DNA of 64,000 nt from a virus. The translations under genes were made by a program, and so were the position numbers. The stretch is taken from the IMG/VR virus record IMGVR_UViG_3300011116_001048, positions 1 through 64,000 of that record. One strand, given 5' to 3'. Under the pieces are notes generated by a model. The model was not told where the DNA came from. It did not search any database and saw only the letters and a list, made by a program, of their open reading frames with translations. This document shows positions 11,856-23,086 of the stretch, in pieces; the first letter of the stretch is position 1, and each line of letters opens with the position of its first letter.

Positions 11856-14171
11856 ATGAGCAGAATTCCTCCTTGTTGTTGTGAGCCACTGGACCAATGC
11901 GCTTATATGTTTCTCAGACCAAAGGCTTTAAGCATATGGCCGAGTTTTGCTACACCTTCTATAAAATTATGGGCAAATAAAATTATAGGTTATACTGGCA
12001 CTAATGCGGAAGGTTATTTTGAACACGCATCAGGAATCACTGGGTGTACTGCTTACGTTAATAATGGTAAAAAATATTTAAAAAATATTGGTATTTTTCC
12101 GGATAAAGTTATTCATTCTGCTAATTTTTTAGCAGAAATACCAGGAGACAATCTTAATTTTTATGGAGCTACACCAGCAGTTCCTAATCCCCCATATAGA
12201 ACATTCGTATTTGGTAGTATAGTATTGCCTAAAAAATATGAAGGTATTACCTTACAAAATACTGTTGTTACAGAAACAGGAGAAATAAAATACGTTTACG
12301 CTAAAGGCAGAACCCCACCTTCTATTTCTTTGTTTTTTGAAACTGGAGCATGCCCCACATATCAAAGAGACGATAACGATAGAGCTGTGGCAGGAGATAC
12401 AGCAGGATATAATGAAAATAATGTGGCATATTTTTCGGTGGTATATTCTGATGATGCTAATAATTTATTTAAAGATAAAAATTTAAGTGTAATTTATTCT
12501 GTAGACCCTACAATAAATATTCCTAACGGAATATGGAATCCCAATCCGGCAATATTTCCCGGCTGTAGTCCGTGTAGAGTAAGAAATCCGGTAACAGATT
12601 TGTACAGGTGTTGGAACAGACCAGATATTGAGTGTGGTGGAGTTCCTTATGCGTATTTTCAAACGATACCAGAACCGATTGAAATATTGTCTTTAAATCT
12701 TGCACAATGTCGAACAGATGCTGGAGAAAGATTTATATCTGTAACAGATACAACTAAAATTGCCCAATTTGAACTATTAAAGGCAATAGAAACAAGTAAT
12801 TCAGAGTGTAAAAATACGATAATACCTTCTGGCTGTATAGACCAAAAAACATTTGCAGTAGAACAATGCAATCCCAGCGAACCAACTGTGCCTTCAGGAA
12901 CAATAAACTGTAAACCAAATTCTAATATTGGTAAAGGTAAAAAAAATACAGTTCAATGTAACAAATATTCCGAAGTTGACTGCAATAATAATCCTGCTTG
13001 TCAAGATTGTAGTATCATGTGTCCGTCTAGAACTTTAGTGGTAGAATTTGTATTTGAGCGATATAAAAGATTTTTCAATGTATGTGATCAGTTTGATTAT
13101 TGTGGTTGTTTCACTGATGAAGAAATATATTCACTTGTTGCAACAAACACAAAAGATCTTGATACTTTTGTTCCAGATTCTCGTTGTGGTACAACCACAG
13201 GAACACTAGAAGGTGGTCAAAGAACCTACGAATGTGTGTATTCTACTGTTGTTGTTGGGCCCTGCGATATAGAAAAACAGTTTACTTTTAATTATACAGA
13301 ATTTGGTAAAGGAACTTATGGTGGAGAAGGCTGTAATCCTGCTGGTAATTTTGATTACAACTCTCCAAAAGTAGCAACACTTGGTCCGTTTTGGGGATCT
13401 TGCTCTCCGTTTGTGATAAATGGTAAAATTAGTTGTGGATTTCAAGGTCCGGGATCCGGATGCTGTTGCTGTTGTGCGGTGACAGACGATAGTTGCGGAA
13501 CTGCTACACCAAATAATCCACCAGATGGTAATGCGGTATTTTTAAAATACACACACGTACCAAATTATACTATAAATCCTTATTTAATGTTTACTAATAA
13601 TCGTGAGTATTTTGATATTGATAATATCAAAGGAATTTCATATCCTAATTTTAGTAAATATATAGCAGATTACACTAAAACATGGATAGCAGATAGACAA
13701 GATTTATACCCTGCTGCTCAGGGATATAAACCATACTTTAAAAATCCTCAATGTTCTATTTCTGTCCCAAGATATTTTATATTCAATGAATCGTTACCGT
13801 TTACTCTTTCGCCCAATTTAGCATACGATTCGTCTATATGTGCAATAAAATATGAACAATTACCAAATTATGATGTTCCGTGTCAGGCTATGTTTGGTGT
13901 AACTGGCGGTACAATTTATTCTTGCGCAAAAAATATAAAACATAATTTGTTGGAAGAAAGATCATTTCAAATAGCATGTGCTAATCAGTATGACACATCC
14001 GCATGCTGGAAAGAAATAAAAACACATTATGAAATATATGAAAAGGAATACTATGGTATTTGTAATGGTATTGGTGTTACGTTAACAATACAACTTCCTA
14101 TAGGGTTAACATTAACAGACTGTACCAATATTTTATCTTGGGATATTTTAAGTAAAGCTCCAAAACGTTAA
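11856..14171 (+). CDS. Very cysteine-rich large protein, possibly a virion surface protein
   Basis: 771 residues with roughly 43 Cys, including PPCCCEP near the start and a five-Cys run (GSGCCCCCAV) at about residue 540. CxxC-type clusters (CNNNPACQDCSIMC) and many Asn/Thr/Tyr/Gly suggest a beta-rich structure stabilised by disulfides or metals. No signal peptide and no enzymatic motif is seen. The neighbouring minus-strand beta proteins and the virion genes further on suggest a structural or fibre-related role, which is inference. Converges with the gene ending at 14173. Confidence 0.55.
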   Translation: MSRIPPCCCEPLDQCAYMFLRPKALSIWPSFATPSIKLWANKIIGYTGTNAEGYFEHASGITGCTAYVNNGKKYLKNIGIFPDKVIHSANFLAEIPGDNLNFYGATPAVPNPPYRTFVFGSIVLPKKYEGITLQNTVVTETGEIKYVYAKGRTPPSISLFFETGACPTYQRDDNDRAVAGDTAGYNENNVAYFSVVYSDDANNLFKDKNLSVIYSVDPTINIPNGIWNPNPAIFPGCSPCRVRNPVTDLYRCWNRPDIECGGVPYAYFQTIPEPIEILSLNLAQCRTDAGERFISVTDTTKIAQFELLKAIETSNSECKNTIIPSGCIDQKTFAVEQCNPSEPTVPSGTINCKPNSNIGKGKKNTVQCNKYSEVDCNNNPACQDCSIMCPSRTLVVEFVFERYKRFFNVCDQFDYCGCFTDEEIYSLVATNTKDLDTFVPDSRCGTTTGTLEGGQRTYECVYSTVVVGPCDIEKQFTFNYTEFGKGTYGGEGCNPAGNFDYNSPKVATLGPFWGSCSPFVINGKISCGFQGPGSGCCCCCAVTDDSCGTATPNNPPDGNAVFLKYTHVPNYTINPYLMFTNNREYFDIDNIKGISYPNFSKYIADYTKTWIADRQDLYPAAQGYKPYFKNPQCSISVPRYFIFNESLPFTLSPNLAYDSSICAIKYEQLPNYDVPCQAMFGVTGGTIYSCAKNIKHNLLEERSFQIACANQYDTSACWKEIKTHYEIYEKEYYGICNGIGVTLTIQLPIGLTLTDCTNILSWDILSKAPKR

Positions 14172-18051: not shown

Positions 18052-18564
18052 TTATCCTATATCTGCTCTCCACTGAGGACTTCTTTGGTAATCAGATCTA
18101 ATATTTCTTAAATAATCAGAGGTTACTTGTGTTACGTTATTGGTGTGGTTGCTTACGTTTGTGTTTGTATTAGCAACTTGATTACCGCCAGATTCTTTGC
18201 CCATGACTGATGCTGCTCCGGATAGGTTTGCAATCTGGGCCATTTTTTGTTCCATATCAGAAACACTGCGTTGTGCGTATTTTATAGCATCGGCTTCATT
18301 CATTCCGTAAACTGCATTAGGGTTAATTGAAGCTGCTGTTTGTCTTGCTTGTTGTATAGCCTGTGAAAACGAAATCTGTCTGGGTTGCTCTTGTTGAGTT
18401 AGTTGGTTGTGTTCGTTTACTGCCGTTGCTGCTGCTTCCTGTGTTGATGTTCTGGTTGGTTTTTGTGGAGAAGCCGGTTTAGGCTTTTTAGGAGTCACAT
18501 CAGATGTGGCAAAAAATTTACCAGTTTTTGTAAAGTCTTCGTTAACAACGTTAGGATCAATCAT
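18052..18564 (-). CDS. Hypothetical protein of the minus-strand baseplate operon
   Basis: 170 residues. Disordered Pro/Thr/Gln-rich N-terminal 70 residues, a helical middle (QAIQQARQTAASINPNAVYGMNEADAIKYAQ), a Asn/Thr-rich linker, and a conserved-looking end SDYLRNIRSDYQRSPQWRADIG. It overlaps the stop of the 51-like frame (18557-18559), suggesting translational coupling. It is probably tail- or baseplate-associated by position. Family not recognised. Confidence 0.55.
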   Translation of the reverse strand: MIDPNVVNEDFTKTGKFFATSDVTPKKPKPASPQKPTRTSTQEAAATAVNEHNQLTQQEQPRQISFSQAIQQARQTAASINPNAVYGMNEADAIKYAQRSVSDMEQKMAQIANLSGAASVMGKESGGNQVANTNTNVSNHTNNVTQVTSDYLRNIRSDYQRSPQWRADIG

Positions 18565-18754
18565 TGGGCATTATTCCTTTGTTTTGTGATACTCTTTGTT
18601 TTTCTTCGTTTAAATATGCTCGTACTTGTTCTACGTATACTGCACGTTCCCACGGAATCATCATTTCTACCTCTTGTATACTGTAATTGTGGTGATACTT
18701 TAATTGAAAATTTTGTCTGTAGTACAGCTGTAAGTTTAAATGATTAAAAAAAAA
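18557..18754 (-). CDS. 51: gp51-like frame without its own start (likely -1 frameshift extension of gene 26)
   Basis: An open frame of 65 codons between an in-frame TAG (18755-18757) and a TGA (18557-18559). Its product is YYRQNFQLKYHHNYSIQEVEMMIPWER..., with the short helical YSIQEVE-x-MIPWER-x-x-YV pattern I associate with the small gp51-type hub-assembly proteins of marine T4-like phages. There is no ATG before the internal MM at 18664/18661, which would remove the first half of that motif. The frame starts on a T9 run (18746-18754) inside the end of gene 26. A -1 slip on U-UUU-UUU would join it to gp26 as a product of about 297 residues. The other possibility is a non-ATG start. Confidence 0.5.
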   Translation of the reverse strand, partial: FFFNHLNLQLYYRQNFQLKYHHNYSIQEVEMMIPWERAVYVEQVRAYLNEEKQRVSQNKGIMPND

Positions 18755-19449
18755 CTAATAAAATCAAACAACCCTTTAATTTTTATTTCACGAGTTTTTT
18801 CGTCTGAGGTCTGATATGTGGAGAAAACTTCAACTTGCGGTAAAGTGTCAAAATACGAAACAACGGCTTTAAACTGCCCGGATGTAAGATTTTTAACAAA
18901 ATCAATCACTTCTTTTTCTGAAACTTCTGAACAATCAATTACCTCTTTTTGATTTTGTATCTGTTTAATACACGAAGCAATAAATGCGTAAGTTTCTTCT
19001 GTGGATGTTTTGTAATTTGGATATTTTAATAGTAATTTTATTGTAGGTTCATTAAATACAACAATTAAATTTTCATTTAATTTTACTTTATTGGTGTTTT
19101 TATTTTTTATTAATCGTATTTGTTTCGTTAAATCTACTTTTATAGATACTTCTTCACCAGTATCTGGACATTTAATTGTAAACCCTTCTAGTTCTCCTAC
19201 AGATTTTGCCCGTAATAGCAAAAACATGTGCTCAAAATCTGCAACAGTCCAGTCTTTACTACTACCAAAACATGCAGAAATAACGTTTGTAAGGGTTTTT
19301 AACAGTGTTTGATTATTTCCTGATTGTATTGCTAGCAGTAAAGCTTTTTCTTCTGACACAATCATGGGCCTAAAATACACTTCTTTACCAGAAATTAATG
19401 TATCAGAATATTGAGGTAATGACGATATTAATAAATCTTTAAGAGCCAT
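18736..19449 (-). CDS. 26: Baseplate hub assembly protein gp26
   Basis: 237 residues resembling T4-family gp26, with GKEVYFRPMIVSEEKALLLAIQSGN, ADFEHMFLLLRAKSVGE and FTIKCPDTGEEVSIKVDL. The family acts in assembly of the central baseplate hub. The last codons read through a T9 homopolymer into ATC ATT TAA, and the -1 frame beyond continues into the 51-like sequence. The start lies two bases after the stop of the tube-fold gene in the same operon. Confidence 0.8.
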   Translation of the reverse strand: MALKDLLISSLPQYSDTLISGKEVYFRPMIVSEEKALLLAIQSGNNQTLLKTLTNVISACFGSSKDWTVADFEHMFLLLRAKSVGELEGFTIKCPDTGEEVSIKVDLTKQIRLIKNKNTNKVKLNENLIVVFNEPTIKLLLKYPNYKTSTEETYAFIASCIKQIQNQKEVIDCSEVSEKEVIDFVKNLTSGQFKAVVSYFDTLPQVEVFSTYQTSDEKTREIKIKGLFDFISFFLII

Positions 19450-19451
19450 AA

Positions 19452-20024
19452 TTACTTATCACTTGTTGTATAATATCTATAGTTCATATCTACAGTTAAA
19501 GTTAAATAATCATTTGTTGCATCATTCATCATTTGTGTTGGTAATATGGTGCTAGGATACGCATCATACAGAGTTATTCGGCGATTTGTTTGCTCATTGT
19601 TGTCTAGGGCATAAATATCAACAGTCCCGGTAATTTCGCCAAAATAACGAACAAATAAAGAATTATTTCTGGTATTTCTTCTATCACCGATAAACATATA
19701 GTCAATCCAATCATCAAAGAATTTTCTAGTTTTCCAAGTTTTGTCTACAATAAAATCGATAATAAATCGTTCGTCGTATTCTCGTTTTACCGGAATGTCT
19801 ATGTTAGGTCCTGAAGGAGCCACAGTATCAGGATAATACGTGACAACTTGTTGTGGAATTTGAACGTTGGTAGCAAAAAGTACAGTTTGATCTAAATTTG
19901 CTCCTGTTGGAGGAGTAACGTCTACTCTAAATCTATTAGATCTTTGAAATCCTGATAAATTTTGAAAAAATGAAACTAATGTACCGATATCTGAATTTTG
20001 TAGTGATTTATTTACTGAAGCCAT
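19452..20024 (-). CDS. Tail-tube-fold protein (gp54/gp19-like)
   Basis: 190 residues with the strand pattern of the gp19 tail-tube family: SNRFRVDVTPP, FATNVQIPQQVVTYYPDT, VKREYDERFIIDFIVDKTWKTRKFFDDWIDYM and the terminal YLTLTVDMNYRYY. Among T4 proteins gp19 (tube) and gp54 (tube initiator on the baseplate) share this fold. Its position beside gene 26 and gene 4 favours an initiator or hub role, since a clear gp19 is at 42019. AAAGG precedes the ATG. Confidence 0.65.
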   Translation of the reverse strand: MASVNKSLQNSDIGTLVSFFQNLSGFQRSNRFRVDVTPPTGANLDQTVLFATNVQIPQQVVTYYPDTVAPSGPNIDIPVKREYDERFIIDFIVDKTWKTRKFFDDWIDYMFIGDRRNTRNNSLFVRYFGEITGTVDIYALDNNEQTNRRITLYDAYPSTILPTQMMNDATNDYLTLTVDMNYRYYTTSDK

Positions 20025-21283: not shown

Positions 21284-23086
21284 ATGTTTCAATATTTTCC
21301 AAAAATAAATTACGGATTTAGTGGTGGGACGTTTGAAGTAACCGATATTTTTAAATCTATTAATTTAGTTTTTGATAGACCAGATGCTCTTTTAACAACT
21401 ACTGCTTTGCCCGGAGAACGTCCCGATCAAATATCAGATCGTTTATATAAAGACCCTCAGTATTATTGGTCTTTATTTTTAACAAATGGTGTAAAAAATC
21501 CGTTAAGAGAATGGGCGCAATCTCAAGAAAGTTATAATGCCCAAATAGAAACAGAATATAGTGGTTGGGTGTATCAATTTGCTAATACGTCAGATTTTCT
21601 TCCTGCTGCCGGTTCTACTGGTTTTACAGGAGATTTTTTAAAGCGTTACGAAGGTACAGATTTAAGCTCTGTCATGGCTGGCGATCTGCTTATCTACGAA
21701 ACCGGAACTGGTCCGTTTAGTATTAAATGTTATGGTGCAGGAGGCGTTACTTCTGCTAATTCGTGTGGTTCTCCCCAATATGGCCAGTGCATAATTCCAG
21801 ACAATTTTAATCAACAGCAAAATGTTGTTCAAATTTCTGCCGGTAATTATTTTGTGTCTGCTTTGGATTCTAAAGGATACATTTACGCGTGGGGAAATAT
21901 AACACCAGGCAGTTCTTTTACCGCTTTTGACCGTTTATACAAGTCTGTATCCGGTAACTACAAGTATATTGACGCTTCCGGAGATAGAATAGTCGCAGTT
22001 AACAGTAATAACCAGATGGAATGTTTTGGTGATTGTTCAGACTTTATCGCATACAATGCTTCAGCAACAACAAACGTTGCAAGAACTGCATGGACCAGTA
22101 ATTCGTCTGGTGGTGTTGCTATTAGACTAGACGGAACCGCAGTAGGATACGGTTACACCCCGCCAGCATCCTTATACAGAGTCGATTGCGGTAACGGATA
22201 TTGTGTAGGGATATTACCAACCACGTTCGGTTTAACCGCTTTTGGTACTAATGCTGGTAATGGAAACCTAGTAGTTCCTCCGGGCGTTTTGGGAATAACA
22301 ATGATTTCGGTTACAGACACCCATGCACTGGCACTAGATACCTCAGGACAAATATATTCGTGGGGCAATAATAATGATGGCCAGTTAAATTATCCGTCTG
22401 GAACTTTCAAGAAAGTATCCGCTGGAAGATCACATTCTGCTGCTATAGACACTAATAATAATTTAGTAGTTTGGGGTCAAATATTGTACTATGGAGACGC
22501 TAGTTGCGACGGTCAATCGTATCAAAAAGCAACACCACTAGGGTTGAGTGGAGCGTTTTTTGATGTGCAATCTGGTTACGATCATTTAATATTAAAAGGT
22601 GTAGGCACAAATTACAAATATGTTGGTGTTGTAGATTCCATCGACACCATATCAAAACGAGTGTTTATAAAAACGTATCAATTCCCAAATACAACTCCTG
22701 TAAAATTTCAAGATCCTTCTGGCACTGTAGTTTCTGTTTGGCGATTTAATAATGCAACAAATCGTTACGAACAAATAAAAACTATACAAAATCAATTGCT
22801 AAGTATAGATAAGTATCTGGATTCACCAATCTACGTACAACAAAATGGAGAAATTTTAGATCTAACTGCCACTGGCGTCTGGGAGAACGTTTATCTGGCT
22901 GGTTATCAAACCGCCAATAATAATGATGATTTTATTACTCCTAGAAAACAATTATTGGACGTTGACCTTTACAACAAAACACAAATCAAACAACTCAGTT
23001 TAACTGGTGTTAAAAATTTAGAAACCGCAATACAAGAGTTATTTAATAATAATAATACAAATGAAATAAAAATAAGTAGCTTATGA
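21284..23086 (+). CDS. 53: Baseplate wedge gp53 with an inserted RCC1-like propeller
   Basis: 600 residues, three times the length of T4 gp53 (196). The N-terminus (YFPKINY, DPQYYWSLFLTNGVKNPLREW) matches gp53. From about residue 185 to 440 there are repeats of the RCC1/BLIP-II type, for example VVQISAGNYFVSALDSKG-YIYAWG, MISVTDTHALALDTSG-QIYSWGNN and KKVSAGRSHSAAIDTNN-NLVVWG, which form a beta propeller. The C-terminal part returns to a baseplate-like sequence and ends in a helix. The propeller would be displayed on the baseplate and may bind a host ligand (inference). Overlaps the next gene by four bases. Confidence 0.75.
   Translation: MFQYFPKINYGFSGGTFEVTDIFKSINLVFDRPDALLTTTALPGERPDQISDRLYKDPQYYWSLFLTNGVKNPLREWAQSQESYNAQIETEYSGWVYQFANTSDFLPAAGSTGFTGDFLKRYEGTDLSSVMAGDLLIYETGTGPFSIKCYGAGGVTSANSCGSPQYGQCIIPDNFNQQQNVVQISAGNYFVSALDSKGYIYAWGNITPGSSFTAFDRLYKSVSGNYKYIDASGDRIVAVNSNNQMECFGDCSDFIAYNASATTNVARTAWTSNSSGGVAIRLDGTAVGYGYTPPASLYRVDCGNGYCVGILPTTFGLTAFGTNAGNGNLVVPPGVLGITMISVTDTHALALDTSGQIYSWGNNNDGQLNYPSGTFKKVSAGRSHSAAIDTNNNLVVWGQILYYGDASCDGQSYQKATPLGLSGAFFDVQSGYDHLILKGVGTNYKYVGVVDSIDTISKRVFIKTYQFPNTTPVKFQDPSGTVVSVWRFNNATNRYEQIKTIQNQLLSIDKYLDSPIYVQQNGEILDLTATGVWENVYLAGYQTANNNDDFITPRKQLLDVDLYNKTQIKQLSLTGVKNLETAIQELFNNNNTNEIKISSL

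Follow-up and report, generated by a model that had tools for sequence, protein, structure and literature searches.

The tail-assembly chaperones G and GT of phage lambda, like their counterparts in many tailed phages, are a short protein and a -1-frameshifted long form with a common N-terminus, and a canonical slippery heptamer lies just ahead of the stop codon of the short form in a gene beside the tail tube gene. In phage T4, the hub assembly chaperones gp26 and gp51 are encoded by separate, divergently transcribed genes and no slippery heptamer is present. Both T4 proteins match PF12322, gp26 corresponding to a short form and gp51 to a long form over its whole length. It has been reported that T4 gp51 is required for assembly yet absent from the particle (PMC3004832). 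For other phages, gp51 was listed as missing in Aeh1 and as lacking about 200 N-terminal residues in cyanophages and vibriophages (PMC3037559), and in GenBank it is annotated as a separate CDS, often truncated or missing. A third system to be compared is the dnaX gene of Thermus thermophilus, in which slippage on a T run has been demonstrated experimentally and gives long and short products of one gene. A full-text literature search, largely confined to freely accessible papers, returned no published shift between genes 26 and 51, and several of its matches used these gene numbers for unrelated proteins. Term searches in the PRFect paper and in a frameshifting review did not turn up such a shift either.

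The window analysed here, which comprises positions 1 to 64,000 of the IMG/VR virus record IMGVR_UViG_3300011116_001048 (118,564 bases in total), carries a gp26-type gene of 237 aa at 18736..19449 on the minus strand (PF12322, 7e-41; phrog_150, 9.5e-41). The PF12322 match reaches 140.7 bits (curated cut-off 24.5), covers positions 9-217 of the 219 in the profile and is the only one in the whole record. The gene directly upstream (19452..20024, minus strand) encodes a tail tube protein (phrog_45 tail tube, 1.7e-27). As claimed in the first-pass annotation, the gp26 stop lies just past a run of nine Ts that reads U UUU UUU in the gp26 frame: the run occupies 18746..18754 and the TAA 18736..18738 (both minus strand), and the codons across it are AGT TTT TTT TTA ATC ATT TAA. 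The T TTT TTT within this run has the X XXY YYZ form of a slippery heptamer, is in the upstream frame and is located inside the overlap of the two frames.

In the -1 frame, a TAG (18755..18757, minus strand) is found just upstream of the T run, after which the frame is open to a TGA at 18559-18557, giving 63 codons counted from 18748. The sequence of this frame (18557..18754, minus strand), which would form the C-terminal part of the predicted fusion, matches phrog_634, described as 'baseplate hub assembly catalyst', with 3.3e-18 over profile positions 62-116 of 121, i.e., its C-terminal half. The frame reading and the profile match thus agree with the earlier description of 63 further codons of gp51 type, and its claim that the frame is closed by an upstream TAG and has no ATG before its middle was also correct. 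Counted from the gp26 stop, the only ATGs are at +74/+77, in the middle of the domain, and at +167, and no GTG or TTG was found in this frame of the window. Since the TAG bounds the gp51 frame, it can be entered only at the T run or by internal initiation. The end of the frame is overlapped by the next gene (18052..18564, minus strand, an uncharacterized 170-aa product; ATGATTGA); the gene downstream in Vibrio phage D484 has a weak match to the tape measure family phrog_4200 (1.1e-6).

We consider it about 90% probable that gp26 and the 'gp51' frame of this locus are one recoded gene with a short product and a -1-slip fusion, a counterpart of G/GT. Standard decoding would give the short gp26 of 237 aa, while a fraction of decoding would shift backwards by one base at T9, with both tRNA-Phe re-pairing at U UUU UUU, and would give a gp26-gp51 fusion of about 297 aa. 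Many copies of the short form may bind the tail substrate, and the long form, as the rarer product, may contribute a tail that brings in tube or hub subunits. T4 and the phages close to it would obtain these two products from the paralogous genes 26 (short) and 51 (long). The observations behind this reading are the frame geometry, the conservation of the heptamer, the missing start codon, the relatives fused in frame and the pattern of two copies versus one copy, all of which can be read directly in the sequences. From them we infer that slippage takes place in infected cells, at some rate and by ribosome or RNA polymerase. A chaperone role is predicted on the basis of the gene architecture, the adjacent tail tube gene and the behaviour of T4 gp51 noted above. 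The locus most likely belongs to a tail-assembly-chaperone system of G/GT type in the T4 superfamily. It differs from lambda G/GT in protein family, being built from PF12322 plus phrog_634 with a longer first domain (~230 aa), and no significant sequence or fold match of gp26/gp51 to known G/GT chaperones was found.

To compare the junction across the family, loci were gathered by protein similarity to gp51 or gp26 and not by the slippery site, and cultured phages were added. In 149 of 154 distinct junctions, the gp26 frame carries a T-TTT-TTN heptamer and the gp51 domain follows it in the -1 frame; the last heptamer base is C in 129, T in 10 and A in 10. The distance from the heptamer to the gp26 stop in these 149 junctions was nearly always 0-2 codons and mostly one codon. 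The remaining five were four in-frame T10 fusions and one deleted copy. The latter (L205, near 1489) is a cyanophage-type contig in which a deletion shortens the 3' end of gp26 and removes the slippery site, and this only heptamer-free junction was treated as defective or mis-assembled. The heptamer was present at the junction of all full-length unfused pairs (104/104) and in all 44 clusters formed at 60% identity, and it occurred at only 9 of 24,504 codons elsewhere in those gp26 genes. Codon choice at the slip site was biased over the 44 clusters, with log10 P of about -7 for a T ahead of the two Phe codons (conditional on the amino acid) and about -6 for TTT as the first Phe codon; both values should be taken as guides, as the clusters are not fully independent.

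The same arrangement was found in cultured phages of Pelagibacter, Methylophilales, Sinorhizobium, Rhizobium, Stenotrophomonas, Acidovorax, Pseudoalteromonas, Cronobacter, Aeromonas (Aeh1) and Vibrio. The suggestion in the first-pass annotation of a possible -1 frameshift joining gp26 to a 51-like frame is therefore strongly supported by the comparison. The arrangement is not local to the window: apart from the T4-type phages with two genes and the Ackermannviridae, it appears to hold throughout the T4 superfamily. In the Ackermannviridae (AG3, Ds16CZ, Bue1) and in Vibrio phage D509, gp51 is in the -1 frame and the canonical heptamer is absent; for this reason the Ackermannviridae were not counted as further members. 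The Ackermannviridae-type junctions without T-TTT-TTN are L227 (Shigella phage AG3), L228, L232 and L230, and the AG3 record annotates the ORF in the -1 frame with the remark 'no identifiable ribosome-binding site'.

The T run is 9-10 bases long in the clade of the window and shorter (T6-T8) in the others. By alignment inspection, the slip site of this clade lies about three codons further downstream than that of cyanophages, and the length of the fusion between the G-L and Y-Y motifs is equal in the two groups. The slip site thus seems to have moved or newly arisen with the product length kept. Two relatives from other samples, L001 (95% identity) and L016 (61%), retain the T9 run with the same geometry as the window, and their gp51 frames are 98% and 69% identical to that of the window. 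In L002-L005 (71-74% identical) and in L149, a T10 run and one continuous frame were found, and the resulting in-frame fusions are collinear with the product predicted for the window (FDYINFFFSHLNLQL vs FDFISFFFNHLNLQL). Close relatives with an ATG-started gp51 and no slippery run were not encountered; the closest ones either keep T9 or are fused at T10.

These default-long T10 genes are the natural one-base counterpart of the T9 gene in the window. A -1 slip in the T10 lineages leads to an immediate stop (TTT TAG in L002-L005, TTT TGA in L149) and a +1 slip to a stop within four codons. Because both non-zero frames are soon stopped, the T10 run could yield a short form from a default-long gene. 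The one-base reversal resembles dnaX, for which it has been reviewed that either product can be the shifted one (PMC5009743); with Thermus dnaX in particular, the phage genes share a run of T9/T10, a long and a short product encoded by a single gene, and close stops in the other frames. Slippage in the phages is only possible, whereas in Thermus dnaX it has been shown, and T6 is the usual run among the phages of this family.

Several other explanations were weighed against this background. A sequencing or assembly error, by which the true run would be T10 and the gene simply fused, might be suspected from the T10 run and continuous frame of L002-L005 and L149. However, T9 is found in the window and in its 95% and 61% identical relatives from different samples, and cultured-phage genomes without a long homopolymer share the -1 geometry. 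Run length is lineage-specific, since the three T9 records come from different samples and T10 is seen in other lineages; a run-length error was rejected as very improbable. It could also be assumed that gp51 is a separate small gene with its own start, at the internal ATG of +74/+77 in the window or by TAATG-type re-initiation elsewhere, and that the T run is incidental. GenBank does have a separate CDS, an ATG is present near the beginning of gp51 in about half of the -1 junctions (73 of 150 unique -1-type junctions), and the +74 ATG of the window is preceded by GAGG at a distance of 5 nt. But this GAGG is absent from L001 and L016, and an ATG start in the window would lose the conserved YY..NF..HH half of the domain. 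No ATG, GTG or TTG precedes the gp51 core in 44 of the 150 junctions, which resemble the window in this respect; moreover, the heptamer does not vary even at positions where other codons would encode the same amino acids, and fused relatives exist. An independent gene was thus rejected as a general account and is unlikely here, but it is possible for single phages with a good ATG. In the 73 junctions with an ATG near the start, gp51 could be initiated separately, in addition to shifting or in its place.

Transcriptional slippage concerns only the T9 step and not the fusion itself, which it predicts as much as ribosomal slippage does. RNA polymerase would add or drop Us on the run to give mixed mRNAs, and those with one extra U (or two fewer) would be read straight into gp51. 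With 9-10 Ts, the run in the clade of the window has the homopolymer length of at least 9 expected for such slippage, and according to a review, runs of 9 As or Ts are efficient slippage sites for bacterial RNA polymerase in vivo (PMC5009743). The Thermus dnaX run likewise has 9 Ts with close stops in both other frames (PMC5009743), as the T10 relatives have within a few codons. On the other hand, the run of the window also carries a heptamer in the correct frame, and the prevailing site in the family is a T6 run with C, A or G after it, a classical ribosomal heptamer that is short for slippage by polymerase. The T6 of most relatives makes ribosomal shifting the likelier family-wide mechanism. 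For the T9 run of the window, which may act through either machine or through both together, slippage by polymerase should be taken seriously, at somewhat below even odds.

Downstream RNA structure and a Shine-Dalgarno-like stimulator are common for -1 ribosomal frameshifts and not obligatory. No downstream structure was found in the window (z 0.31), and no consensus pairs were found over 24 cyanophage junctions. For 25 of 44 clusters, an upstream Shine-Dalgarno-like stretch ranked within the top decile of its own gene; this frequency is confounded by the conserved E-G-L motif encoded at the same place, and the stretch of the window is weak. The AlphaFold model of the long form (L002) had a pLDDT of 82, and its first PDB match was 2OB9, the HK97 tail assembly chaperone, which is suggestive but at a level that is not significant (E 0.4, prob 0.33).

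The T4-type phages carry two genes instead of a recoded one. T4 gp26 (208 aa) terminates where the -1-type junctions have their slip site, but the codons there (GAG TTC TTT GAG) contain no heptamer. T4 gp51 (249 aa) matches PF12322 over residues 1-201 (3.9e-52), phrog_150 over 3-248 and phrog_634 over 147-246, i.e., it is a gp26-plus-tail protein. These profile matches indicate that gp26 and gp51 are paralogues matching the short and the long form. Two PF12322 copies were found in T4, RB43, KARL-1 and Aeromonas 31, and one copy in the other 17 records tested, including Aeh1, KVP40, D484 and cyanophages; none was found in control genomes outside phages. Among the one-copy phages, gp51 is in the -1 frame behind GAT TTT TTC GAC TGA in Aeh1 and behind GAT TTT TTC GTA TAA in KVP40. 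The 'short gp51' of cyanophages and KVP40-like phages in GenBank has the same domain and position as the frame studied here, but there it stands as a gene of its own, often truncated, and here we read it as the 3' portion of gp26, a recoded gene. Judging from sequence, the N-terminal part seemingly absent from the 'short' gp51 is gp26 itself. The gp51 domain in the -1 frame is unannotated in L231 (Cronobacter LPCS28) and L019 (S-WAM1), and in L131 (Aeh1) it had been reported missing.

In the tree, the gp51s of the two-gene phages form one group (100/99). Because the root is not known, we only infer the direction of change, from one recoded gene to two genes. A reasonably probable course is that an ancestral single gene with a -1 shift was duplicated into the pair 26/51 in T4-type phages and, in the clade of the window, was rebuilt on a T9/T10 run, on which a single base would flip the default product between short (T9) and long (T10) in the manner of bacterial dnaX. 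A conserved frameshift would explain why gene 51 looks shortened or missing in many phages, and the annotation of gp51 would be corrected in hundreds of phage genomes. It would also connect T4 gp26/gp51 with the tail-assembly chaperones that lambda-like phages make by frameshifting and provide a testable model in which gp26/gp51 are a short/long chaperone pair. The T9/T10 runs would represent a natural one-base switch between default-short and default-long versions.

Two other genes in the window, both on the plus strand, were recorded. A cysteine-rich ORF of 771 aa at 11856-14171 has no Pfam match. The gene at 21284-23086 encodes a homologue of the baseplate wedge protein gp53 (PF11246, 3.6e-9; phrog_232, 3.4e-18 over residues 1-94), with RCC1-type repeats in the middle of the protein (PF13540, 1.6e-19) that are an unusual addition for gp53.
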